From an uncultured Bacteroidota bacterium (GTDB lineage Bacteria > Bacteroidota > Bacteroidia > Flavobacteriales > Flavobacteriaceae), in NCBI GenBank assembly GCA_902590705.1, contig CACIXU010000009.1, positions 1 to 59,876 of the forward strand: 59,876 nt of DNA, written 5' to 3'. Both the position numbers and the translations under genes were made by a program. The notes below the pieces were generated by a model, which was not told the origin of the DNA, did no database searches, and saw nothing but the letters and a program-made list of their open reading frames with translations. Every line of letters starts with the position of its first letter. Positions within the stretch are counted from its first letter, which is position 1. Shown one piece after another: positions 17,158 to 29,435 of the stretch.

Positions 17158-19125
17158 CTAGGGTAGGGATTTAAACTTCCTTATACCCTCCTCTAACCAA
17201 TCCTTATAAATTTGTGCATTAGTATATTGAACTGAACTATTGAGAAGAGTTCCATTGGACGATAGCAATAGGTAAAAAGGTTGAGATGCTGAACCAAAAT
17301 TAAGACTTTGAAAAGTAGCCCATTTTTCTCCTGTGGTTTTTATGCTCTTGACACGACCATTGGGGTATTTATAATTAAATTGATCAACATCAGGTAATAA
17401 TTCTCGATCATCGACATAAAGAGAGATTATGACATATTCTTTATTTAATAAACTAAATATTTCAGGTTTAGACCAAACATTTTCTTCCATCTTTCTGCAG
17501 TTTACACAAGCCCATCCAGTAAAATCTAATAAAATAGGCTTGTTATTTGCCTCAGCATATGCCCTACCCTCTTCAAAATCTTTAAAACAGTTCAACCCCA
17601 ATGGACATTCAGAATCCGAAGCGTAAACGCTGTAAAATGTAGGGGGAGGAAATCCACTGAGCAAAGCCAATTGTCCTGTTTGATTCTTTCCTAACCCTTG
17701 AATCAAGTAGATTGAAAACAAAAAAACTAAAAAAGCGAAAAAATATTGGATTTTATTTAATTTGAAAACTTTTACTTCATGTGGAAAACGCAACCATCCC
17801 ATCAAGTATGTAAATAATGAAAGAGAGATAATCAACCAAATTGCCAAAAATACTTCTCGCTTTAAGATTCCCCAATGAGCAACCAAATCAGCATTTGAGA
17901 GAAACTTCAATGCCAAAGCTAATTCCAAAAATCCTAAAGTCACTTTTACTTTTGTCATCCATCCACCAGATTTGGGAATAGACTTTAGAAAACTGGGGAA
18001 AAGGGCAAGAAGGCCAAAAGGCATTGCTAAAGCAAAACCGAATCCAGCCATTCCAATGGTCAATTGGGTGGCTCCCCCATCAGCAGTCAAAGATCCTACT
18101 AATAAAGACCCCAAAATGGGACCAGTGCATGAAAAGGATACAATCGCTAATGTCAATGCCATAAAAAACACACCTAAAACACTACCTGAAGAAGAGGCGC
18201 TATCTGAAAAGTTTCCCCAAGAACTAGGTAAGGTGATTTCATAATATCCAAAAAAGGAAAAAGCGAAAAAGACAAATAGAACAAAAAAGATTAAATTCAT
18301 AACGATATTAGTAGAAAGAGTGTTTAGAATTTGTGGATCGATTGCATCCAAAAAGTGAAAAGGTAAACTAGATAATAAATAAATTATAAAAATAAAAAAG
18401 CTGTAAAGCAAAGCCAGCCCGAACCCTTTACCTTTAATTGCACTCTGTTTTAGGAAAAACGACACAGTTAAAGGAATCATAGGAAAAATACAGGGAGTCA
18501 ATAATGCAATTATGCCCCCTATAAAACCCAGTAAAAATAAATTTAACAATGAATTATCAGTCTTTTTTTGTTCCTTTTTATCAATAAAATGTTTATTCTT
18601 TAAATCAATTTTTAGAGCTGAAATTTTTTCTAAACTCCCAGTATCAATTACCTTTTTTTCCCGAATAACTTGTTTTGAGTTATCAAGAACAAAAAGGAAA
18701 GCTTCGTTTCTGAATATACAGAGCTTGTCATCGCAAGCCTGATAATTGATTTCACCCTCAATTGATACCAAATCTGGATTCAGTAGTTTTATTTTTTGCT
18801 CAAATTGGGCTTCAACATCAAACCAAGACAACTCCATTTCAAATATTGGATCAAAGGCTGTTTTGGATTTACCCTCTTTAGTATTCCCGACTAAATTAAA
18901 CTGACCTTCTTCCCCTTTGAAAATAAACTCAGTAGGTAAAGGACCATTATCTGGAAGGTTTTGAGAATAAAGATGCCATTTGGGTTTGATTTTAGCTTTA
19001 AATTTCAATAAATAAGTATCATCAGAAACTTTTTCCAACGCTGTTGTCCAGACTACTTGTTCTGGAGACTGAGACTGAATTAATAATGTCCAAAAAAACA
19101 AAAATAAAAATCCCTTTTTAATCAT
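17158..19125 (-). CDS. dsbD: Protein-disulfide reductase DsbD family (thiol:disulfide interchange protein)
   Basis: Inner-membrane protein that carries electrons from cytosolic thioredoxin to periplasmic thiol partners. It is 655 residues long with a signal peptide (GFLFLFFWTLLIQSQS), an N-terminal DsbD alpha-like domain with two cysteines (YQACDDKLCIF), then about eight membrane helices. The helices contain the redox pair LLTPCIFPMIPL and FSCTGPILGS. The C-terminal thioredoxin-like domain holds CVNCRK near residue 540. All three cysteine pairs needed for the electron relay are present. Its start overlaps the end of tilS by eight bases on the same strand, so it is probably co-transcribed with tilS. 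Confidence 0.93.
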   Translation of the reverse strand: MIKKGFLFLFFWTLLIQSQSPEQVVWTTALEKVSDDTYLLKFKAKIKPKWHLYSQNLPDNGPLPTEFIFKGEEGQFNLVGNTKEGKSKTAFDPIFEMELSWFDVEAQFEQKIKLLNPDLVSIEGEINYQACDDKLCIFRNEAFLFVLDNSKQVIREKKVIDTGSLEKISALKIDLKNKHFIDKKEQKKTDNSLLNLFLLGFIGGIIALLTPCIFPMIPLTVSFFLKQSAIKGKGFGLALLYSFFIFIIYLLSSLPFHFLDAIDPQILNTLSTNIVMNLIFFVLFVFFAFSFFGYYEITLPSSWGNFSDSASSSGSVLGVFFMALTLAIVSFSCTGPILGSLLVGSLTADGGATQLTIGMAGFGFALAMPFGLLALFPSFLKSIPKSGGWMTKVKVTLGFLELALALKFLSNADLVAHWGILKREVFLAIWLIISLSLFTYLMGWLRFPHEVKVFKLNKIQYFFAFLVFLFSIYLIQGLGKNQTGQLALLSGFPPPTFYSVYASDSECPLGLNCFKDFEEGRAYAEANNKPILLDFTGWACVNCRKMEENVWSKPEIFSLLNKEYVIISLYVDDRELLPDVDQFNYKYPNGRVKSIKTTGEKWATFQSLNFGSASQPFYLLLSSNGTLLNSSVQYTNAQIYKDWLEEGIRKFKSLP

Positions 19126-20425
19126 AATTTCTTATAATCCATCTATCTTCTTTATGGTATTCGATAGAATATCTTTCATCGACTCTTTTCCCCACTACCC
19201 AAATAATATCTTCTCCTGAACACAGTAACCACTGCTTTTCTTTGTCAAGTAAGGAGAATTTTTCATCCTTAAAATATTTACTTAACTTTTTTTTGCCATT
19301 AAGTCCTTTAGGATAAAAGTAGTCACTTTCCCTCCATTTTCTTAGGGTTAATGGAAACTTCAATAATTTTATGTTAAAACAGGCGGTGTTTTTATCAGCA
19401 ATTTTGATTTTGTTATTTAAACCTAATTTTAATTTTATTGGGACTTGAATTTTCTTAATATTTTGCTCAATAGTGTAAGTTTTATTAAAATCTTCGCTTT
19501 GCTCAATAAGCAGCAAGTGAGATCGATTTTTAACAAGTCTGTGAGTCTTAGATAACAATTGTTTTCCAGATTGTGCATGCAATAGTTGATTTAAATCTTT
19601 AACATTATCAAATCCATAATTAGCAAATAAAGCATGTAGGAAAAAGTTAATTGGATTTAGTAATTTTAATTCATCCACTGAGATTTTAATTTGATGTTCC
19701 ATTTTAATAAAATACTTGGTCTTAAAATCCTTAATCACATTATCCAAAGCAATTTTCGCTTGTCCCAAATATTCTAGCGTATTACTAAATCGATTATGAA
19801 AATTAGGATCTGTAGCTTTCCAATTTGGAATTACTTTATGTCTTAGCTTATTTCTTAAATAATCTGTTTTTGCGTTTGAAGCATCCTCTCTCCATTTGAC
19901 GTTATTTTCATTAGCATAATTGATTATTTCCATTCTTGTAAAGGGTAAAAGAGGTCGAATAATTTTCCCCCTGATTTGAGGTATTCCAACCAATCCTTTT
20001 AAGCCAGAACCTCGCATTAGGTTAATCATAAATGTCTCTAAGACATCATCAGCGTGATGCGCTAAAAGAATTACTTCATACTCATATTTTATTGATATTT
20101 CATTAAACCAATCATATCTTAGCTTCCTGGCTGCCATTTGAATAGAAGTTTTTTTATTTTCAGCATAAATCAGTGTATCAAATTTTTTAATGTGACATTC
20201 TAGTTTTTTATCTTCAGCTAATTTTTTAATCCAAAGTGCATCGTCCTCGCTTTCTTTGCCCCTTAATTGAAAATTACAATGGGCTATGGAAATATTTAAC
20301 CCATTTTTTAAACAAAGTGATAAAAGAACACAGCTATCTATACCCCCACTTGAAGCTAAAAGAATTTTTTGATTCTTTAAATGAGAAAAATTTTTCAATA
20401 AGTGTGCCTTAAACTTCTGAAACAT
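19118..20425 (-). CDS. tilS: tRNA(Ile)-lysidine synthase
   Basis: ATP-dependent enzyme that converts C34 of the CAU anticodon of tRNA-Ile to lysidine, so that AUA is read as isoleucine. The PP-loop SSGGIDSCVLLSLC is at residues about 25-38, with HCNFQLRGKESEDDALWIKK and the LAHHADDVLETFMINLMRGSG motif (read in two parts) downstream, followed by TilS substrate-binding domains. I place the start at the ATG of MFQKFKAHLLKNF rather than at the in-frame TTG at 20461, because the extra residues lie over a promoter match and families start near MFQKF. The gene is essential in most bacteria. Confidence 0.92.
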   Translation of the reverse strand: MFQKFKAHLLKNFSHLKNQKILLASSGGIDSCVLLSLCLKNGLNISIAHCNFQLRGKESEDDALWIKKLAEDKKLECHIKKFDTLIYAENKKTSIQMAARKLRYDWFNEISIKYEYEVILLAHHADDVLETFMINLMRGSGLKGLVGIPQIRGKIIRPLLPFTRMEIINYANENNVKWREDASNAKTDYLRNKLRHKVIPNWKATDPNFHNRFSNTLEYLGQAKIALDNVIKDFKTKYFIKMEHQIKISVDELKLLNPINFFLHALFANYGFDNVKDLNQLLHAQSGKQLLSKTHRLVKNRSHLLLIEQSEDFNKTYTIEQNIKKIQVPIKLKLGLNNKIKIADKNTACFNIKLLKFPLTLRKWRESDYFYPKGLNGKKKLSKYFKDEKFSLLDKEKQWLLCSGEDIIWVVGKRVDERYSIEYHKEDRWIIRNYD

Positions 20426-20428
20426 AGG

Positions 20429-20458
20429 CAAAATTAAGGATTTTGGAATTGGGGTCAA
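20429..20458 (-). promoter_or_regulatory. Promoter for tilS, implying an almost leaderless mRNA
   Basis: The minus strand reads TTG, 19 bases, then TAATTTTG, a full match to the Bacteroidetes TTG-N17..20-TAnnTTTG consensus. The -7 element ends three bases before the ATG at 20425, so transcription would begin at or within the first codons. Either the message is leaderless or translation begins slightly further downstream. Confidence 0.5.
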
Positions 20459-20489
20459 CAACTAAATAACTACTTCGTCAAAGACTTTT

Positions 20490-20520
20490 TTTGTAAAAAA
20501 AAATAAAATTCGGATATTTG
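20490..20520 (+). promoter_or_regulatory. Promoter of the arginine operon leader
   Basis: TTTG at 20490-20493, a 19-base spacer and GATATTTG at 20513-20520 match the Bacteroidetes consensus in all but the first base of the -7 element. It points toward the arginine operon and would start RNA around 20526, directly at the 25-codon leader. The bases at 20521-20531 (CATTTCAAATG) form a perfect inverted repeat over the expected transcription start, which could be an operator or chance. Confidence 0.55.
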
Positions 20521-20528
20521 CATTTCAA

Positions 20529-20606
20529 ATGACTGATGCAACGACATATTACATTGGACCCTTATTGGCAAATAGCCAGTCTCCGTTACGTCTACGCCGC
20601 CCCTAG
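20529..20606 (+). CDS. Putative arginine leader peptide (25 residues)
   Basis: Short open frame starting ATG ACT GAT and ending with the residues SPLRLRRP and a TAG stop. It holds three arginine codons within four (CGT CTA CGC CGC), which are CGN codons in a genome that appears to prefer AGA. It begins a few bases after a good promoter and lies about 90 bases upstream of the acyltransferase start of the arginine operon. A ribosome stalled for lack of charged tRNA-Arg would sit over the local RNA structures. I do not know this peptide as a described family; the function is inferred from position and composition. Confidence 0.55.
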   Translation: MTDATTYYIGPLLANSQSPLRLRRP

Positions 20607-20653
20607 CGGGTTATTAACTCTACATGAGACCTTGGTGCGCCCAGTCTCCTTTT
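20576..20653 (+). promoter_or_regulatory. Candidate attenuator with mutually exclusive stems upstream of the arginine operon
   Basis: CCAGTCTCC occurs at 20576-20584 (inside the leader peptide, just before its Arg codons) and again at 20641-20649. The intervening GAGACCTTGG at 20626-20635 can pair with either copy (GAGAC:GTCTC, T:A, GG:CC with single-base bulges). The second pairing is followed by TTTT. A further small hairpin CCGC-CCCTA-GCGG spans the leader stop codon. This is the layout of a 1:2 versus 2:3 switch, but the T run is short and the direction of control cannot be read from sequence. Confidence 0.45.
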
Positions 20654-20699
20654 ACAGTTTCGTTTACCTAATTTTTAACTCTAATATTTTTTGTCAATA

Positions 20700-21245
20700 A
20701 TGGAAATAGTTATTGCCAATTCAAAACATATCGTTTACGCCAAATCCATTTGCAGCTGTATTGATGAATCAGCAAAAATGAGAGGCACTGGTATTGCTAG
20801 AAGAACACCAGGATACATAATTAAAAAGATTGAGGCTGGCAATGCAGTAATAGCTATAGAAAACAATGAGTTCGCAGGTTTTTGTTACATAGAAGTCTGG
20901 GGCCATGGTAAGTATGTTGCCCACTCAGGTTTAATAGTCTCACCAAAGCACAGAGGAAAGGGATTAGCAAAAATAATCAAGAAAAACGTATTTGATCTTT
21001 CGAAGCTAAAATTCCCAAAAGCTAAAATTTTCGGAATAACTACCGGAAAGGCCGTTATGCGTATTAATTTTGAACTTGGCTATAAACCTGTCTCATTTTC
21101 GGAGTTAACAGACGATCCAGAATTCTGGATGGGTTGTCAAACGTGTAAAAATTATGATGTGCTGACCAGAACTGATAGAAGTATGTGCTTATGTACAGGA
21201 ATGTTATATGACCCCATTAGTGGGCAAAACAATAAATTGAGTTAA
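20700..21245 (+). CDS. GNAT-family N-acyltransferase of the arginine operon (probable N-acylglutamate synthase)
   Basis: First gene of the arginine operon, 181 residues from the ATG at 20700 (an in-frame TTG nine bases earlier is less likely). The GNAT core appears as VIAIENNEFAGFCYIEVWG, with the acetyl-CoA loop SPKHRGKGLAKIIKKNV. By operon position it should acylate glutamate as the entry step; in Bacteroides the pathway uses succinylated intermediates, so the acyl donor could be acetyl- or succinyl-CoA. Unusually for such a small GNAT, the C-terminus holds a cysteine cluster (GCQTCKNYDV ... MCLCTGMLYDP), suggesting a metal site or redox role. It ends one base before argG. Confidence 0.8.
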   Translation: MEIVIANSKHIVYAKSICSCIDESAKMRGTGIARRTPGYIIKKIEAGNAVIAIENNEFAGFCYIEVWGHGKYVAHSGLIVSPKHRGKGLAKIIKKNVFDLSKLKFPKAKIFGITTGKAVMRINFELGYKPVSFSELTDDPEFWMGCQTCKNYDVLTRTDRSMCLCTGMLYDPISGQNNKLS

Positions 21246-22436
21246 ATGGCAAATAAAAAATTAGTATTAGCTTACAGTGGTGGTTTAGATACTTCTTACT
21301 GTTTAATGAAACTTTCAAAAGAGGGTTATGAAGTCCATGCTGTAAATATTAACACTGGAGGTTTTGATAAGCAGCAGATTGTGGATATGCAAACCAAAGC
21401 TTTTCAAATGGGTGCGCACGCCTACAAATCAATTGATGCTTTATTATCTTTTTATGAGAAGGTTGTTCAATATTTGATTTACGGTAATATACTCAAAAAT
21501 AACACCTATCCTCTCTCAGTAAGTGCGGAAAGAATAGTGCAGGCTATTGAAATAATAAAATACGCCAAAAGTATTGGCGCTAATGCTATTGCTCATGGAA
21601 GTACTGGTGCGGGTAACGATCAGGTAAGATTTGATTTAATTTTTCAGGTAATGGACCCTGAAATTCAAATTATTAGTCCAATAAGAGACCTACAGCTAAC
21701 AAGAGAGGATGAAATTAAATATCTGAAAGAAAATGGTGTTAATTTATCATGGGAAAAAGCTCAATATTCCATTAATCAGGGGTTGTGGGGAACAAGTGTA
21801 GGTGGTAAAGAAACTTTAACCTCTAATAAAAATCTACCTGAATCAGCTTACCCCAGTCAGGTCAATAAAAAAACGACTGAGGAAGTTGTTTTAGAATTTC
21901 AAAAAGGTGAATTAGTTGGAATTAATGGTAAAATAGACTCCCCTGTAAATAATATTTTAAAGCTTCAACAACAAGCCAAAAATTTTGGAATTGGAAGAGA
22001 CACTCATGTAGGAGACACAATTATTGGAATAAAGGGTAGGGTTGGATTTGAAGCTGCTGCCCCGTTGATTATAATTAAAGCTCACCACCTTTTAGAAAAA
22101 CACACTTTAAGTAAATGGCAACAGTTTCAAAAGGAGCAATTGGGTAACTTCTATGGCATGTTACTCCATGAGGGGCAATACCTTGATCCAGTGATGAGGG
22201 ATTTGGAAGCTTTTTTAGCAAACAGCCAAAATACTGTTAACGGGATGGTCTTTGTTACTCTTCAACCTTACAGGTTTGAATTAAAAGGAATCGATTCTCC
22301 AAATGATTTAATGAATGCCTCCTTTGGAAGTTATGGTGAAAAAAATATAGGTTGGACAGCAGATGATGCGAAAGGTTTTATCAAAATAATGTCAAATCAA
22401 AATAAGATTTACCAACATATTAATAAAGAAAAATGA
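21246..22436 (+). CDS. argG: Argininosuccinate synthase
   Basis: Joins citrulline and aspartate with ATP to give argininosuccinate, the penultimate arginine step. The 396-residue protein begins with the PP-loop LAYSGGLDTSYCLMKL (residues 8-18 core) and contains AIAHGSTGAGNDQVRFDLIF (quoted to 20) and the citrulline/aspartate-binding region GLWGTSVGGKETL. It starts directly after the acyltransferase stop and overlaps argC by four bases (ATGA), so the order of translation is tightly coupled. Confidence 0.96.
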   Translation: MANKKLVLAYSGGLDTSYCLMKLSKEGYEVHAVNINTGGFDKQQIVDMQTKAFQMGAHAYKSIDALLSFYEKVVQYLIYGNILKNNTYPLSVSAERIVQAIEIIKYAKSIGANAIAHGSTGAGNDQVRFDLIFQVMDPEIQIISPIRDLQLTREDEIKYLKENGVNLSWEKAQYSINQGLWGTSVGGKETLTSNKNLPESAYPSQVNKKTTEEVVLEFQKGELVGINGKIDSPVNNILKLQQQAKNFGIGRDTHVGDTIIGIKGRVGFEAAAPLIIIKAHHLLEKHTLSKWQQFQKEQLGNFYGMLLHEGQYLDPVMRDLEAFLANSQNTVNGMVFVTLQPYRFELKGIDSPNDLMNASFGSYGEKNIGWTADDAKGFIKIMSNQNKIYQHINKEK

Positions 22437-23392
22437 AAAAAGTAGGTATAATTGGTGGTTCGGGATATACTGGAGGAGAGTTAATCAGGTTAGTGGTTAA
22501 TCATCCAGCACTTGTTCTAGATTTTGTTCACAGTACTTCAAGACCGGGTACTCCGCTTTATGACACACATGTAGATTTATTAGGTAGGTCGGAGTTGAGT
22601 TTTACAGATAACATCAATTCAGAGGTTGATATAATTTTTCTTTGTGTTGGACATGGAAAATCTGTTGGATTTCTGGAGGAACACAAATTTTCCAGCCAAA
22701 CCATCATTATTGATTTGAGCAATGACTTTAGACTTAAAAAAGATGCCCAATTTCAAGACTATGATTTTATTTATGGTTTACCAGAACATCAAAAAAATAA
22801 AATTCAGAGTGCTAAGGCAATTGCCAATCCTGGATGTTTTGCAACCGCAATTCAGTTAGCGCTTCTACCTTTGGCAAAAGAAGGTCTAATCAAAGAGGCT
22901 GTTCATATAAATGCAACTACAGGTAGTACAGGCGCAGGGGTGCGTTTGAGTTCCACTGGGCATTTCAGTTGGAGAAATAATAATGTATCATGGTACAAAC
23001 CCTTTCAACACCAGCATTTAGGGGAAATTAAAGAAACCTTACAGGATCCTAAAATCTTTTTTTTGCCACAGCGAGGTAACTTTACAAGAGGTATTTTTTC
23101 TAGCTGCTATACTCCATTTGAAGAAAGTATTAAGCAAGCGGAAAATTTGTATAGGGATTACTATAATTCACATATCTTCACTCATGTTTCTGCGAAAGAG
23201 ATTGCTTTAAAACAAGTAGTCAACACCAATAATTGTGTATTACATTTGCACAAGCATGAAGATCAATTATTGGTTACTTCAGCTATTGACAATTTGTTGA
23301 AAGGTGCCTCTGGACAAGCAATTCAAAATTTGAACCTAATAATGGGGTGGGAGGAAGATTTAGGACTTCAACTTAAAGCTAGTATATATTAA
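22433..23392 (+). CDS. argC: N-acetyl-gamma-glutamyl-phosphate reductase
   Basis: NADPH-dependent reduction of N-acylglutamyl phosphate to the semialdehyde. The dinucleotide-binding IIGGSGYTGGELIRLV starts at residue 5 and the catalytic Cys lies in IANPGCFATAIQLALLPL near residue 135. The C-terminal TSAIDNLLKGASGQAIQNLN is diagnostic for ArgC. The 319-residue length is slightly shorter than the E. coli enzyme and usual for Bacteroidota. The ATGA overlap with argG indicates coupled translation. Whether the natural substrate is acetylated or succinylated is undecided here. Confidence 0.95.
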   Translation: MKKVGIIGGSGYTGGELIRLVVNHPALVLDFVHSTSRPGTPLYDTHVDLLGRSELSFTDNINSEVDIIFLCVGHGKSVGFLEEHKFSSQTIIIDLSNDFRLKKDAQFQDYDFIYGLPEHQKNKIQSAKAIANPGCFATAIQLALLPLAKEGLIKEAVHINATTGSTGAGVRLSSTGHFSWRNNNVSWYKPFQHQHLGEIKETLQDPKIFFLPQRGNFTRGIFSSCYTPFEESIKQAENLYRDYYNSHIFTHVSAKEIALKQVVNTNNCVLHLHKHEDQLLVTSAIDNLLKGASGQAIQNLNLIMGWEEDLGLQLKASIY

Positions 23393-23411
23393 AAATTAAA
23401 GCGAAGAAAAA

Positions 23412-24206
23412 ATGAAAATAGCTATTATAGGATCAGGTAATTTAGGGCTGAGTATTGCAAAAGGATTAGTCTACAACAATACTTATACTTCTCTTTACCT
23501 GACCAAAAGAGACCTAAGTGCAATCGAAAAATGGGAAGAATATAATAATGTAAAAATAACTAATAATAACCAAGAGGCTGTCAAAAATGCTGATATTGTT
23601 ATTTTTACAGTACAGCCAATTCAGTTCGACGGAATTCTAGAGGAAATTAGAGGTGCTTTGACTGATAAACACGTATTGATTTCTGCTATCACAGGATACA
23701 GCATCAGTAGAATGGAGAAAAAATTAGGTAGTAATTATCCTATTATAAGAAGTATGCCTAATACTGCGATCTCTGTTGGTAAATCAATCACTTGCTTGTG
23801 TTGTAATGTTGCTGGAGAAAAAAGAATTGCTATCGCAGAGGCTATTTTCAACGGTTTAGGTACAACAATTAAAATAGCTGAAAAACAAATGCAAGCAGCT
23901 ACTGTGGTTTGTGCAAGTGGAATCGCCTTTTGGATGCGATTAATAAGAGCTACGACTCAGGGTGGCGTTCAAATGGGTTTTGATGCCGATGAATCTATGA
24001 GAATGTCAATGCATACTGCCCTTGGAGCAGCCAGTTTGTTGATTGAAACAGATTCTCATCCTGAAACTGAAATCGATAAGGTGACAACTCCTCAAGGATG
24101 TACAATCACTGGTTTAAATGAAATGGAACATCAAGGACTGAGCTCATCACTTATCAAAGGACTAATGGCTTCTTTTGAAAAAATCAATGAAATTAAAATT
24201 CAATAA
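23412..24206 (+). CDS. proC: Pyrroline-5-carboxylate reductase
   Basis: Reduces pyrroline-5-carboxylate to proline with NAD(P)H. The 264-residue protein starts with the Rossmann motif AIIGSGNLGLSIAKGLVYN and ends with the conserved TPQGCTITGLNEMEHQG segment, in which TxGGxT-like residues bind substrate. The region RSMPNTAISVGKSITCLC fits the RxMPNxP family motif with Thr-Ala replacing the usual residues. Its place between argC and argD is a recurring Bacteroidota arrangement and may link ornithine-derived proline synthesis to arginine supply. Confidence 0.92.
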   Translation: MKIAIIGSGNLGLSIAKGLVYNNTYTSLYLTKRDLSAIEKWEEYNNVKITNNNQEAVKNADIVIFTVQPIQFDGILEEIRGALTDKHVLISAITGYSISRMEKKLGSNYPIIRSMPNTAISVGKSITCLCCNVAGEKRIAIAEAIFNGLGTTIKIAEKQMQAATVVCASGIAFWMRLIRATTQGGVQMGFDADESMRMSMHTALGAASLLIETDSHPETEIDKVTTPQGCTITGLNEMEHQGLSSSLIKGLMASFEKINEIKIQ

Positions 24207-24217
24207 AGAATTAAGAA

Positions 24218-25339
24218 ATGAAACTATTTGACGTATACCCGCTCTATGAAGTATGTCCAGTACGAGCTAAAGACGTATATGTATATGACGAAGCGGGAAC
24301 GGAATATTTGGATTTGTATGGAGGCCATGCCGTCGTCTCAATAGGGCATAGCCACCCTTACTATGTAAATCGATTGGAAGATCAACTAAATAAAATCGCA
24401 TTCTACTCCAACGCAGTAGTAAATCCATTGCAACAAGAATTAGCGGATGAGATTGGTGATCAATCAGGTTTACACAATTATCAATTATTCTTATGTAGTT
24501 CAGGTGCTGAAGCCAATGAAAATGCTTTAAAGTTAGCATCTTTTCATACGGGAAAAAAAAGAATTATCGCTTTTAAAAATGCCTTTCATGGCAGAACTTC
24601 TGCTGCAGTAGCAGTTACTGATAATCTAAATATCAATGCGCCACTAAACCAACAACAAGAGGTAACTTTCATTCCCTTTAACGATTTGGAAAAATTGGAA
24701 AATGAATTGAAAAAAGGTGATGTCTGTGGAGTGATTTTTGAATCCATTCAAGGGGTTGGTGGATTAGATATTCCTGATGATGATTTTGTTACAGGAATGG
24801 ACACTTTGTGTAAAAAATATAAAAGTTGCTTGATTGCTGACGAGGTTCAATCTGGTTTTTCAAGATCTGGGAATTTTTTCGCTTTTCAGCAAAATAACAT
24901 TAAACCTCATGTGATCACGATGGCAAAAGGAATGGGGAATGGATTTCCCATTGGAGGCGTACTCGTTCACCCCAATTTAAAACCCAAATACGGGATGTTA
25001 GGTACTACTTTTGGTGGTAATCACTTAGCATGTACTGCCTCTTTGGCTGTATTGGAAATTATCAAAAAAGAAAAATTACAAAAACATGCTAAAAACATGG
25101 AAGCTTATTTTCGAACTAAAGCCGAAAAGATTAAGGGTATTAAAATAAAGGGGCGTGGACTTATGCTGGGCTTAGCATTTGATTTTGAAGTCGGTCCATT
25201 AAGAAAAAAATTGATTTATGAAAAAAATATTTTTACAGGTGGGAGTAGTAACAAAAATGTTTTGAGAATTCTTCCTCCATTGACCGTTCAAGAAAAACAT
25301 TTCGATCGGTTTTTTGATGCACTAGAAAATTTATTATGA
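24218..25339 (+). CDS. argD: Acetylornithine/succinylornithine aminotransferase
   Basis: PLP enzyme that transaminates the N-acylglutamate semialdehyde to N-acylornithine. The 373-residue sequence contains YLDLYGGHAVVSIGHSHP, SSGAEANENALKLA, the PLP-binding Asp in LIADEVQSGFSRSGNFF and the Schiff-base Lys in TMAKGMGNGFPIGGV. The C-terminal RILPPLT motif is present. It overlaps argF' by four bases (ATGA). Class III aminotransferases are interchangeable in sequence, but the operon context makes this assignment strong. Confidence 0.95.
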   Translation: MKLFDVYPLYEVCPVRAKDVYVYDEAGTEYLDLYGGHAVVSIGHSHPYYVNRLEDQLNKIAFYSNAVVNPLQQELADEIGDQSGLHNYQLFLCSSGAEANENALKLASFHTGKKRIIAFKNAFHGRTSAAVAVTDNLNINAPLNQQQEVTFIPFNDLEKLENELKKGDVCGVIFESIQGVGGLDIPDDDFVTGMDTLCKKYKSCLIADEVQSGFSRSGNFFAFQQNNIKPHVITMAKGMGNGFPIGGVLVHPNLKPKYGMLGTTFGGNHLACTASLAVLEIIKKEKLQKHAKNMEAYFRTKAEKIKGIKIKGRGLMLGLAFDFEVGPLRKKLIYEKNIFTGGSSNKNVLRILPPLTVQEKHFDRFFDALENLL

Positions 25340-26283
25340 ACCATTTTATAACATTAGCGGACTTACCAAATTTTAACCAAACCCTTGACCTGGCAATGGA
25401 TTTTAAAAAGGATCCCTGTAGACTTAATACTCTAGGAAAAGGAAAGACTTTAGGACTACTTTTTTTTAACCCTAGCTTGAGAACAAGACTGAGTACTCAG
25501 AAAGCAGCGCAAAACTTAGGTCTTAACACCATGGTTATGAATTTTAGCCAAGAATCATGGGCGTTAGAATTTGAGGACGGGACAAAGATGAGTGGGCTTA
25601 GATCTGAACACGTCAGAGAAGCAGCAGCAGTGATATCGCAATATTGTGATATGATTGCCATAAGGGCATTTGCTTCCCTCTCAGATAAAGAAAAAGATGA
25701 AGCTGAAATCGTTTTAAAAAGTTTTACTGAATACGCAAGCGTACCAATAATCAATATGGAAAGTGCAACAGCACACCCATTGCAAGCGGTTGCTGATGCA
25801 ATAACTTTAAAGGAATTTAAAACTCCTCATAAACCCAAAGTAGTATTAACTTGGGCCCCACACCCTAAAGCGCTCCCTCATGCAGTTGGGAATTCTTTTA
25901 CAAAGATGATGGAAAACTTAGATGCCGATTTTATAATTGCTCACCCTCATGGATATGCACTCAATCCATTAATAACCAAGGGAGTGAAATGTATTAACAA
26001 CCAGGAAGAGGCTATGGAAAATGCTGATTTTATTTACACAAAGAACTGGTGTTCATATGAACATTATGGACAAATATTGAGAACTGACGATAAATGGATG
26101 ATTACCCCTGAAAAGATGGAACTCACAAACAACGGGAAATTCATGCACTGTTTACCTATCAGGAGAAACATTGTTGCGGCTGATGAAGTTTTGGATAGTT
26201 CAAATTCTCTAGTTATACAGCAATCACAAAATAGAATTTACAGTGCCCAAGCAGTGCTAAAACAACTTTTAGAAAATGGATAA
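25336..26283 (+). CDS. argF': N-acetylornithine / N-succinylornithine carbamoyltransferase
   Basis: Carbamoylates the N-acylated ornithine rather than free ornithine. The carbamoyl-phosphate loop reads FNPSLRTRLSTQKAAQNLG instead of the STRTR of classical OTCases. The C-terminal signature is MHCLPIRRNIVAADEVLD, as in the Xanthomonas/Bacteroides AOTCase-SOTCase group. The 315-residue length fits. The choice between acetyl and succinyl substrate depends on a few loop residues that I cannot assign with confidence from sequence alone. It overlaps argD by 4 bases and argB by 8. Confidence 0.92.
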   Translation: MNHFITLADLPNFNQTLDLAMDFKKDPCRLNTLGKGKTLGLLFFNPSLRTRLSTQKAAQNLGLNTMVMNFSQESWALEFEDGTKMSGLRSEHVREAAAVISQYCDMIAIRAFASLSDKEKDEAEIVLKSFTEYASVPIINMESATAHPLQAVADAITLKEFKTPHKPKVVLTWAPHPKALPHAVGNSFTKMMENLDADFIIAHPHGYALNPLITKGVKCINNQEEAMENADFIYTKNWCSYEHYGQILRTDDKWMITPEKMELTNNGKFMHCLPIRRNIVAADEVLDSSNSLVIQQSQNRIYSAQAVLKQLLENG

Positions 26284-27058
26284 ACTTTCCGTAGTAAAAA
26301 TCGGTGGAAATGTTATTGAGGATACCAAGCAATTAAATGACTTTTTGACTGCATTGAGCCAAATGCAAGGTGCCAAGATATTGGTGCATGGTGGGGGTAA
26401 AAAAGCTACTGTTATGGCTAAAAAGTTGGGTGTTCCAGTAAAAATTATTGACGGGAGGAGAATAACTGATACTGAAAATTTAGATATTATCACTATGCTT
26501 TATGGTGGAAAGATTAATAAAAATATTGTGGCTCAATTACAGGCTATGGGTTGTAACGCGATTGGACTCTCAGGAGCAGATGGTAATGCAATTAAAGCTG
26601 TAAAAAGGCCAAAGAAGGAAATTGACTTCGGTTTTGTTGGAGATGTTACCGAAATTAACGCGTCCTTATTTAAACTTTTATTGAGATCCCAACACCTTCC
26701 AGTCTGTTGTGCAATAACTCACGATCAAAACGGACAACTACTTAATACAAATGCAGATACCATTGCCGCTAGTCTAGCCAAAGGCTTGTCTAAATTTTTT
26801 GAAGTTTCGCTGTTCTATTGTTTTGAAATGCCAGGGGTTTTAAAAAAAATTGAGGATAAAGAAAGTGTCATTGGTGAAATTACCCCAAAGAGTTACACTG
26901 AATTAAAAAATAATAATGTGATTCATTCTGGCATGATACCCAAAATTGAGAACTGTTTTGAGGCATTAAAAAAAGGTGTGTCCGAAGTGAAAATAGGATC
27001 ACCATTGATGATTTCTGGAGTGTCAAAGTACACAAAACTTATTTTAGATGATTATTAA
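26276..27058 (+). CDS. argB: Acetylglutamate (acylglutamate) kinase
   Basis: Phosphorylates the gamma-carboxylate of N-acylglutamate. The 260-residue amino acid kinase fold shows VVKIGGNVIEDT at the N-terminus and ILVHGGGKKATVMAKKLG as the nucleotide/substrate glycine loop. The LLNTNADTIAASLAKGL motif binds ATP and substrate, and SGMIPKIENCFEALKKGV ends the fold. There is no long N-terminal helix of the type seen in arginine-inhibited hexameric kinases, so feedback inhibition may be absent (inference). The start overlaps argF' by 8 bases and the end overlaps argE by 11. Confidence 0.95.
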   Translation: MDKLSVVKIGGNVIEDTKQLNDFLTALSQMQGAKILVHGGGKKATVMAKKLGVPVKIIDGRRITDTENLDIITMLYGGKINKNIVAQLQAMGCNAIGLSGADGNAIKAVKRPKKEIDFGFVGDVTEINASLFKLLLRSQHLPVCCAITHDQNGQLLNTNADTIAASLAKGLSKFFEVSLFYCFEMPGVLKKIEDKESVIGEITPKSYTELKNNNVIHSGMIPKIENCFEALKKGVSEVKIGSPLMISGVSKYTKLILDDY

Positions 27059-28106
27059 TTTAACAACCGCTGCGATTGATTTATTAAAAGATCTGATAGG
27101 GTTACCATCTTTTTCGAAGCATGAGGATAAAACCGCTAACAGGATTGGGGAATGGTTTAATCACTATGGAATTCCCTATGAAAGGGAGGGAAATAATCTA
27201 TGGGCAAAAAATAAAGCATTTGACCCTCAGAAACCAACCCTTTTACTAAATTCTCATCACGATACAGTAAAGCCTAATGCTGCATATACTAATGATCCTT
27301 TTGAAGCTAAAATATTAGATGGGAAGCTGTATGGACTCGGAAGTAATGATGCTGGTGGTGCATTGGTTTCACTCATGGCTTTATTTACTTATTATTTTGA
27401 TAAAGAAAATCCAAAATATAATTTATTGGTTGTTGCCTCAGCAGAGGAGGAAATTGCAGGTGATAACAGTTTAAGAGGTTTAATTCCAAAACTACCTAAA
27501 ATTGATGTTGCAATTGTGGGAGAACCTACAGAAATGAATTTGGCTGTTGCGGAAAAAGGTTTAATAGTTTTTGACGCGGTCATAAAGGGAACACCAGGCC
27601 ATGCAGCTCATCCAAATGCTGACAATCCAATCATGAAACTCCCTGAAGTATTGAACTGGTTCGAAAATTTTAAACTGCAAAAATACTCTGACTTTTTGGG
27701 AGATGTAAAAGTTACTGTAACACAGGTCAGTGCTGGAAAAGAACATAATGTTATACCAGCGAGTGTTAACTTGGTCGTTGATGTTAGAGTCAATGATAAA
27801 TATAGTAATCAAGAATTGTCAAATATACTAGTCAAAGCTGCACCTTGTCAAATGACGCCCAGATCTTTAAAATTAAATTCTTCTTCAATTGCAATTGATC
27901 ATGAGATAGTTAAGGCAGGAATTAAACTAGGAAGAAAAACTTATGGTTCCCCAACCTTGTCCGACCAGGCAGCATTGGAATGCCCATCTGTAAAAATAGG
28001 CCCAGGACTATCTTCAAGATCACATTCAGCTAATGAATTCATCTTTGTAAATGAGATAGAGGAAGCTATTAAGATCTATATTGAGCTTATAGGTAAAATA
28101 TTATAA
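27048..28106 (+). CDS. argE: M20-family deacylase (acetylornithine/acetylcitrulline deacetylase)
   Basis: Zinc amidohydrolase that should remove the acyl group late in the pathway. Because the carbamoyltransferase acts on acylated ornithine, the expected substrate is N-acylcitrulline rather than acetylornithine. Metal and catalytic motifs are LLNSHHDTVKP, GLGSNDAGGALVS, the catalytic Glu in VVASAEEEIAGDNS, and GPGLSSRSHSANEF near the C-terminus. The 352-residue length is typical. The 11-base overlap with argB shows that the operon is densely packed. Confidence 0.93.
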   Translation: MIINLTTAAIDLLKDLIGLPSFSKHEDKTANRIGEWFNHYGIPYEREGNNLWAKNKAFDPQKPTLLLNSHHDTVKPNAAYTNDPFEAKILDGKLYGLGSNDAGGALVSLMALFTYYFDKENPKYNLLVVASAEEEIAGDNSLRGLIPKLPKIDVAIVGEPTEMNLAVAEKGLIVFDAVIKGTPGHAAHPNADNPIMKLPEVLNWFENFKLQKYSDFLGDVKVTVTQVSAGKEHNVIPASVNLVVDVRVNDKYSNQELSNILVKAAPCQMTPRSLKLNSSSIAIDHEIVKAGIKLGRKTYGSPTLSDQAALECPSVKIGPGLSSRSHSANEFIFVNEIEEAIKIYIELIGKIL

Positions 28107-28136
28107 TTAAATATTAAAAAATAAAAAAACTGATTA

Positions 28137-29435
28137 ATGAAACTTTGGCAAAAAAATACACCGGCTAACGATAAAATTATCGATTTTACTGTGGGTAAAG
28201 ACCGAGATTTTGATCTGTATCTCGCAGCCTATGATTGCCAGGCCTCTATCGCACATACTCAAATGTTGGATAAAATAGGAGTATTGACAGAACAGGAGTC
28301 CCAAGCAATAGTGGAAGTCTTAGAGGAACTTAAATCTAAAGCAGAAAACAGCAAGTTTGTGATTGAGGATTCCTTTGAAGACATGCATTCAAAAATAGAA
28401 TTCACATTAACTGAAAAATTGGGTGATTTAGGTAAAAAAATTCACACAGCAAGATCTAGAAACGATCAAGTTTTAGTGGCAATGCACCTATATTTAAAGG
28501 AGGAGATAGCAGCAATTAAAAAACTGACCTACGACTTATTTAAGCTTTTAATAAAACTTTCTAAACAACACAAAGATAAATTATTACCTGGATACACTCA
28601 CTTCCAAGTGGCTATGCCTTCTTCTTTTGGACTGTGGTTTTCTGCTTATGCTGAAAGTTTAATTGATGATGTAACCCTTTTGAATGCTGCAAGAAAAATA
28701 GTTGATCAAAATCCATTGGGTAGTGCTGCAGGCTTTGGTAGTTCATTCCCTATTGACAGAAAAGCAACTACAGAAAGTCTGAATTTTATGGATCTGAAAT
28801 ACAACGTAATTGCTGCTCAAATGAGTAGAGGTAAGGCAGAAAAGATAACAGCTTTCGCGATAGCATCTTTGTCGGCTAACCTTTCAAAAATGGCAAATGA
28901 CATATGCTTATACATGAGCCAAGAACACAATTTTATTAGTTTTCCAGAAGATTTGACCACAGGGTCCAGCATCATGCCACATAAAAAAAATCCAGATGTT
29001 TTTGAATTAATTAGAGGTAAAAGTAATATACTGCAAGGATTACCAAATCAGTTAATATTGCTAACTTCAAATTTGCCTTCAGGCTATCACAGAGAAATGC
29101 AACTTGCCAAAGGACTTATTATTGAGGGGATAGAAGATATAAAAGCTTGTTTGAATATTTTTAATTTTAGTTTGAAAGAGATACAAATCAGAGAAAAAAT
29201 TCTGGAAGACCCTAAATACAAATATATATTCTGCGTTGATACACTTAACGAATGGGTAAAAGAGGGTATGCCATTTAGAGACGCTTATAAAAAAATGGGG
29301 GAAGCAATTAATAATGGTGATTACCGACCAAAACAAGAATTAGACCACACCCATCTGGGTAGTTTAGGAAATTTAGCTTTAGATGAAATTCAAACTAAAA
29401 TGGAGCAGGCTTTAAAGTCTGGATCAAATGTGTAA
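28137..29435 (+). CDS. argH: Argininosuccinate lyase
   Basis: Cleaves argininosuccinate to arginine and fumarate, the final step. The 432-residue fumarase/aspartase superfamily protein shows TARSRNDQVLVAMHLYLK, the catalytic His region LLPGYTHFQVAMP and the signature GSSIMPHKKNPDVFELIRGK. It closes the arginine operon, starting 30 bases after argE. Its last 12 bases overlap the end of lpdA on the opposite strand, so the two genes converge with no room for an independent terminator between them. Confidence 0.96.
   Translation: MKLWQKNTPANDKIIDFTVGKDRDFDLYLAAYDCQASIAHTQMLDKIGVLTEQESQAIVEVLEELKSKAENSKFVIEDSFEDMHSKIEFTLTEKLGDLGKKIHTARSRNDQVLVAMHLYLKEEIAAIKKLTYDLFKLLIKLSKQHKDKLLPGYTHFQVAMPSSFGLWFSAYAESLIDDVTLLNAARKIVDQNPLGSAAGFGSSFPIDRKATTESLNFMDLKYNVIAAQMSRGKAEKITAFAIASLSANLSKMANDICLYMSQEHNFISFPEDLTTGSSIMPHKKNPDVFELIRGKSNILQGLPNQLILLTSNLPSGYHREMQLAKGLIIEGIEDIKACLNIFNFSLKEIQIREKILEDPKYKYIFCVDTLNEWVKEGMPFRDAYKKMGEAINNGDYRPKQELDHTHLGSLGNLALDEIQTKMEQALKSGSNV

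Follow-up and report, generated by a model that had tools for sequence, protein, structure and literature searches.

The window (the whole stretch of DNA that was analysed, 59,876 nucleotides from a bacterium of the Flavobacteriaceae) carries an arginine operon of nine genes, the number given in a preliminary description of this DNA; it runs from a GNAT acyltransferase to argH, with proC among them (Table 1). The acyltransferase was recognized by its Pfam domain only, and its reading frame is open from TTG 20691 as well; several of the gene names in the operon rest on matches below the NCBIfam cut-offs. The gene for pyrroline-5-carboxylate reductase, proC, sits within the arginine operon at 23412-24206. 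In front of the operon, the preliminary description had placed a good promoter directly before a 25-codon Arg-rich frame containing CGT CTA CGC CGC; the frame is present in the sequence, and the predicted promoter is of the Bacteroidetes type. We take the TTTG of this promoter to be its -33 element. Its partner, GATATTTG, differs at one position from TAnnTTTG, which PMC9723704 quotes as the -7 consensus. The leader ATG lies 8 bases 3' of GATATTTG, so the message is probably nearly leaderless, and a simple scan of the plus strand of 20400-20760 gave no sigma-70 type promoter. Two copies of CCAGTCTCC, one within the leader (20576-20584) and one downstream (20641-20649), and the arm GAGACCTTGG (20626-20635) are likewise found where they had been reported; CCTTTT follows.

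Table 1 Features of the arginine leader region and operon in the window.
Feature	Positions	Strand	Basis
Bacteroidetes-type promoter: TTTG (20490-20493), 19 bases, GATATTTG (20513-20520)	20490..20520	+	predicted from sequence
Arg-rich leader frame, 25 codons, MTDATTYYIGPLLANSQSPLRLRRP-stop, tail PLRLRRP-stop	20529..20606	+	sequence and relatives
Arg codon cluster CGT CTA CGC CGC, proposed sensing codons	20589..20600	+	codon bias in relatives
Hairpin 1: last Arg codon in 5' arm, stop at loop, G-rich 3' arm	20597..20611	+	predicted
Hairpin 2, outer stem: 20626-20630 with 20644-20648	20626..20648	+	covariation
Hairpin 2, inner GG-CC and pentaloop UGCGC (20636-20640)	20634-20635 with 20641-20642	+	covariation
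G-poor, pyrimidine-rich stretch to acyltransferase start	20649..20699	+	base composition of 91 loci
GNAT acyltransferase, first structural gene	20700..21245	+	PF00583 (Pfam domain only)
argG, argC, proC, argD, N-acetylornithine-type carbamoyltransferase, argB, argE/dapE-type deacylase, argH	21246..29435	+	

Taken alone, the RNA of the window folded no better than its shuffles (z 0.38; 125 of 200 shuffles were at least as stable). An Rfam search of 18000-23000 at E up to 5 gave five weak matches, none of them within 20490-20700, and 20 loci searched at gathering score gave one tRNA only. As a single sequence the element is not unusual; it stands out beyond chance because it is kept in relatives. 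For this comparison, we used 110 acyltransferase-argG loci gathered through the acyltransferase, 30 from whole genomes (that of the window included) and the top 80 among 478 in named contigs; these are related, not independent, samples. Hairpin 1 and hairpin 2 occur in the same order at 91 of the 110 loci by a strict pattern and at 93 by a looser one, which alone accommodates L065 and L097. Seventeen loci lay outside the first pattern, namely L022 and L024-L029 (with another leader type), L030, L053, L063 (contig end), L071, L077, L079, L082, L089, L095, and L110. Two of the 91 loci are identical stretches, leaving 89 sequences in alignment A1, and L032, L049, L050, and L069, which have other bulge registers, are in neither alignment A2 nor A3. 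A TAnnTTTG box lies at most 20 bases upstream of the leader ATG at 78 of the 91 loci (24 without mismatch, 54 with one), and the distance from box to ATG is 7 or 8 bases at 56 of the 91, these being raw counts.

Conservation across relatives had been suggested as a check in the preliminary description, and it held for both the leader and hairpin 2, which covaries (see below). By a fixed rule (an ATG frame of 10-60 codons within 310 bases upstream, 3 or more of its last 12 being Arg), an Arg-rich leader was found at 89 of the 110 loci, compared with a mean of 4.1 in shuffled sequences and 7 on the reverse strand. An ATG leader frame could be assigned at 81 of the 91 two-hairpin loci; 62 of these frames are 24-29 residues long, and in 79 two or more of the last 8 residues are Arg, the usual endings before the stop being RRP, RRRP, and RRPxGV. 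The leader frame stays open over 22 codons at 89 of 90 loci, compared with 41 and 23 for the other two frames. Its pN/pS in 15 close loci (0.78 vs 0.89 and 1.04) is hardly lower than in those frames, so the middle of the peptide appears nearly free to change. Across 78 leaders, CGC or CGT accounts for 281 of 312 Arg codons (90%), a bias that arises partly because hairpin 1 and the search pattern need the last CGC; the ORFs of the window use these codons for 17 of 110 arginines (15%; 11 ORFs), and AGA (67) is the commonest. A short, putatively translatable frame with clustered cognate codons close to the predicted start, as in leaders of the trp/his type, is thus found here.

Some loci depart from this layout. 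At L012, L015, L016, L018-L021, and L023, two short Arg-rich frames apparently stand in tandem upstream of the GNAT gene, the first nearer the promoter (ending e.g. in RNRRRF) and the second at hairpin 1. Loci of genus g2, which is probably Flavobacterium, have another leader or none: L022 and L024-L029 bear a different Arg-containing leader upstream of the GNAT gene, with a tail like TSPEVRML, and some loci of this genus also show a GGATT-AATCC hairpin farther off.

The last Arg codon and the stop of the leader sit in a hairpin that the preliminary description had not named, our hairpin 1, for which two registers are possible in the window. It has 4-7 pairs at the 91 loci, which were selected by a pattern that includes it, and the stop codon falls in its loop at 63 of the 91 and past the hairpin at the other 28. 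The stop-codon region is also more stably folded in the 37 leaders found more widely in the class (-7.4 kcal/mol vs -5.2 in shuffled sequences and -3.9 in adjacent segments). In hairpin 2, a small bulge on the 5' side separates the outer stem from an inner GG-CC, and the loop is usually a UGNGY pentaloop. When its sequences were sorted by bulge length into sets of 37 and 29 distinct sequences, 97.0% and 95.7% of the cells were paired, percentages that no shuffle reached and that dropped to 24-66% in slid versions; changes on both sides were seen in 7 of 8 pairs and 6 of 8 pairs, respectively. Sorting by best register favours pairing, but a swap control in which every pair was free to choose its register fell short too (4.26 pairs, at most 4.63, compared with 5.87 observed). 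Further pair types in the 37-sequence set were not above shuffles (149 of 500 reach the observed number). The alignments point strongly to covariation in hairpin 2, and because its stem varies freely with pairing kept, we rejected a reading of this site as a DNA operator. RNAalifold run on the whole of alignment A1 did not return hairpin 2, since bulge lengths vary and the alignment is out of register there.

The preliminary description proposed a switch in which the single arm pairs with either CCAGTCTCC copy. The comparison did not support it. In the window alone, both copies give 5 contiguous pairs with the arm; over the window and 14 close relatives, the 3' copy gives a mean of 6.2, and the leader copy pairs like shuffled sequence (4.8 vs 4.6). 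The accompanying problem, that a ribosome stalled on the Arg codons would favour the second stem and so reverse the classical logic, therefore rests on a pairing that is not kept in relatives. What stands of the ribosome-mediated attenuation originally proposed is an Arg-rich leader just 3' of a predicted promoter, conserved together with covarying structure and tied to the arginine operon. Predicted folding of 78 leaders suggests that hairpins 1 and 2 are compatible, not exclusive (mean probability of hairpin 2, 0.44), and neither prediction nor comparison gave the mutually exclusive hairpins of trp/his-type leaders. Three other pairings were tried and rejected. A CGCC-GGUG pairing, the sole helix that RNAalifold returned on A1, was near zero in folding and is disrupted in L017 and L023, whose inner hairpin 2 pair is A-U instead of G-C. 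Pairing of the 3' arm of hairpin 1 with hairpin 2 had a median of 0.003 despite a parked ribosome (mean of the summed value, 0.36). A kissing interaction of the pentaloop with the hairpin 1 region seemed convincing on visual inspection of several families but gained no support from permutation (0.489).

The element is tied to the arginine operon. A two-hairpin model, R1, found matches in 76 of the 120 genomes of the family that were searched (E up to 0.1; 44 were without a match), and the GNAT gene and argG accompanied all 30 of the best R1 loci, in a search that was blind to genes and in which a few of the loci were training sequences. The hairpin 2 model, R2, matches the window at 20624-20650. 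Applied to 13 genomes, 9 of them of the same genus, R2 gave matches with E below 0.001 in 6, one in each and all adjoining the GNAT gene, and seven weaker matches that were not beside it; one strong match per genome, beside the GNAT gene, rules against a general flavobacterial element. Nor is a clear Ile/Leu/Val leader visible by eye at 14 of 30 ilv loci. Beyond the family, the fixed rule found an Arg-rich leader at 8 of 20 loci of the order (shuffled mean 0.58, maximum 3; reverse strand 2) and at 37 of 63 distant loci of the class (shuffled mean 4.45, maximum 9; reverse strand 6), although a few of the latter, L290 and L291 among them, look fortuitous; the class count excludes L176 and L177 (family f1), and L284 repeats L186. 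The distant leaders end in RV, RA, RI, or RR, their common feature being Arg content. At the leaderless loci L156-L158, L161, L163, L164, L171, and L172, AGATAAT/ATTATCT-like repeats lie just upstream of the acyltransferase gene and are perhaps a repressor site.

ArgR, a repressor of arginine genes, is tied to the same operon as the leader but is a DNA-binding protein, and it is rare in the class: PF01316 matched 12 of 197 class genomes, 10 of them over the cut-off, so arginine control in most others needs another explanation. No match was found in the genome of the window, which is 83% complete. In six genomes with a GNAT locus, the ArgR match lies directly upstream of the GNAT gene on the same strand, and in none of the six does a leader lie between the two. 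A like layout was also not seen in the stretch before argR at these six loci. The fixed rule gave frames there in three of the six stretches, but by eye that of L301 overlaps a promoter-like box, that of L302 looks like the end of an upstream gene, and that of L305 is more than 300 bases away; since argR starts closely 3' of a promoter-like box, we read all three as chance. Palindromes resembling TGTATAATTATACA occur just before the argR start in L301-L306 and are perhaps the operator of argR itself. Two leader genomes have marginal PF01316 matches, just over the cut-off in G039 and below it in G570, in frames of 312 and 310 residues, respectively. Neither the leader nor ArgR (the latter as judged from the genomes searched) showed up in families f5 and f31, which means that leader and ArgR do not exhaust the ways of control.

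We consider it likely that the leader region senses arginine in cis through the ribosome and that its output is for the most part something other than classical intrinsic termination. That the leader senses ribosome occupancy is well supported by the predicted anatomy, and the sequence comparison argues for the conservation of the leader, its open frame, its Arg and CGY bias, both hairpins, and the tie to the arginine operon. Translation, stalling, and the direction of control we infer as follows. Transcription would probably start a few bases 5' of the leader ATG, so that a ribosome could load at once on the 25-codon message, whose last codons include CGY arginine codons, a kind uncommon in the genes of the window. 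When charged tRNA-Arg is ample, the ribosome would finish and leave, hairpin 1 would close behind it, and the operon would go down. When arginine is short, the ribosome would wait on the Arg codons and keep hairpin 1 open, which would favour RNA polymerase or the downstream start site, and the operon would go up. Hairpin 2 and the G-poor stretch would carry the output. For the output step, we place Rho-dependent termination in the unstructured stretch first and translational control of the acyltransferase second, with room left for a pentaloop-binding factor and for hairpin 1 acting as a weak intrinsic terminator; at most family loci, the output is probably not intrinsic termination after hairpin 2. 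Over the 91 loci, the last 47 bases contain 5.0% G, compared with 14.6% in 135 control upstream regions, and a T run of at least 5 in 72.5% of cases, compared with 29.6% of controls. The C content is raised only slightly (19.3% vs 16.7%), so that a Rho site in this stretch is no more than a candidate; Rho is encoded in the genome of the window.

Among the alternatives, the one that fares best, though we hold it to be clearly less likely than not, is control at the level of translation, in which the position of the leader ribosome would alter initiation on the acyltransferase message. It agrees with the unstructured, G-poor 5' flank of that gene, mostly 45-61 bases from the hairpin 2 core to the ATG. 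However, when a parked ribosome was imitated by masking in 78 leaders, the predicted access to the start codon was unchanged (0.508 vs 0.504, p 0.38).

Somewhat less probable still is that a protein or other factor binds hairpin 2 through its UNNGY pentaloop, with the leader peptide secondary. In this family, the loop is nearly constant while the stem changes, although the search pattern itself included the loop, and UNNGY hairpins occur at 22 of 53 distant loci compared with 1-4 after shuffling. The pattern was nevertheless derived from the same 53 loci, 9 of which were picked from the 20 order loci, mostly for a visible leader (the 11 without one were left out of the counts), and a C..GY pattern is raised too (10 of 53 vs 0-4); the pentaloop is thus a lead, not proof. 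Such hairpins are present beside ArgR as well, at L217 and L283, and a factor of this kind would leave the Arg codons without explanation. We know of no factor that binds a UNNGY pentaloop.

A classical attenuator of the trp/his type, with exclusive hairpins and an intrinsic terminator before the first gene, is unlikely. The leader peptide has cognate codons, and terminator-like stems (at least 5 pairs followed by 5 T in 8) are above shuffles, at 41 of 91 arginine leaders (shuffled 2-5), or 19 of 91 (0-4) by a stricter rule of at least 6 pairs; in the class, the counts are 17 of 37 and 14 of 37, compared with 1-4 and 0-3. Hairpin 1 is involved in 11 of the 12 terminator matches listed, where it is mostly followed by a diffuse U-rich spacer. 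In family f51, the leaders L208 and L211 have a strong stem and then a T tract, much like a classical terminator, which supports attenuation as a common theme. Against this, a simple scan of 20400-20760 found no terminator-like site in the window, the four bases that follow hairpin 1 have a T fraction of only 0.31-0.48 (0.45-0.70 further on), the alternative pairing of the preliminary description is not conserved, and folding gave no exclusive pair. The preliminary description had put its second stem before TTTT; this stem does exist, yet only 5 of the 91 loci have 5 or more T in a row within 22 bases of its core. An intrinsic terminator with a U tract before the first gene, as in trp/his-type leaders, is therefore not what these loci generally contain. 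The his operon of the same family offers a direct comparison. Of 31 genomes of the family, 26 yielded a HisG, and of the upstream regions L220-L245 (L220 from the genome of the window), all 26 were scored and 16 were read. Like the arginine leader, the his leader is a short frame rich in the product amino acid, near the promoter and upstream of hisG: 25 of 26 have a frame with at least 2 His, that of the window's own genome being MILLNVHTHLLTFAQMR with a 13-pair stem. Unlike it, nearly all his leaders (25 of 26) carry a strong stem with a T tract, which makes for a strong predicted intrinsic terminator, compared with 19 of 91 arginine leaders at 6 or more pairs. Terminator-like stems are thus present at arginine leaders but far weaker and rarer than at his.

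An arrest peptide that senses free arginine rather than codon supply is improbable: the stop directly follows Arg-Pro at 63 of 91 loci, and TnaC also ends in Pro-stop, but this ending is not kept in other families, where Arg content is what is shared, and control in this direction would be unusual where the genes serve biosynthesis. TnaC and SpeFL are arrest peptides for free tryptophan or ornithine that act with Rho. The arginine leader resembles them in combining putative leader translation with the general lack of an intrinsic terminator and differs in that they are arrest peptides, a role of Rho at the arginine leader being a candidate. As to the phylum, a transcriptome study of the flavobacterium F. 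psychrophilum reports that attenuation by leader peptides is strongly indicated in front of operons for amino acids (PMC9723704), and the passages compared here name no arginine leader among its candidates. In B. thetaiotaomicron, an organism of the same class as that of the window, short frames in long 5' UTRs have been likened to attenuating leader peptides (PMC7366714), and the word arginine is absent from the main text of that article. The literature consulted, including PMC9723704, PMC7366714, and PMC8632094 and drawn mostly from outside subscription journals and supplements, describes no arginine leader of this phylum.

In summary, a conserved Arg leader would be a testable explanation for arginine control where ArgR is absent. 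The hairpin at the stop codon, together with the absence of a strong terminator at most loci, points to a non-textbook output step, in contrast to the his operon of the same family, which has ordinary attenuators. Bacteroidia are abundant in the sea and the gut. As a tentative extension, which we put at somewhat below even, class-wide arginine control in Bacteroidia may replace ArgR in this way, the stop-codon hairpin reporting ribosome occupancy and the UNNGY hairpin relaying it without an intrinsic terminator, through Rho or a putative loop-binding factor.
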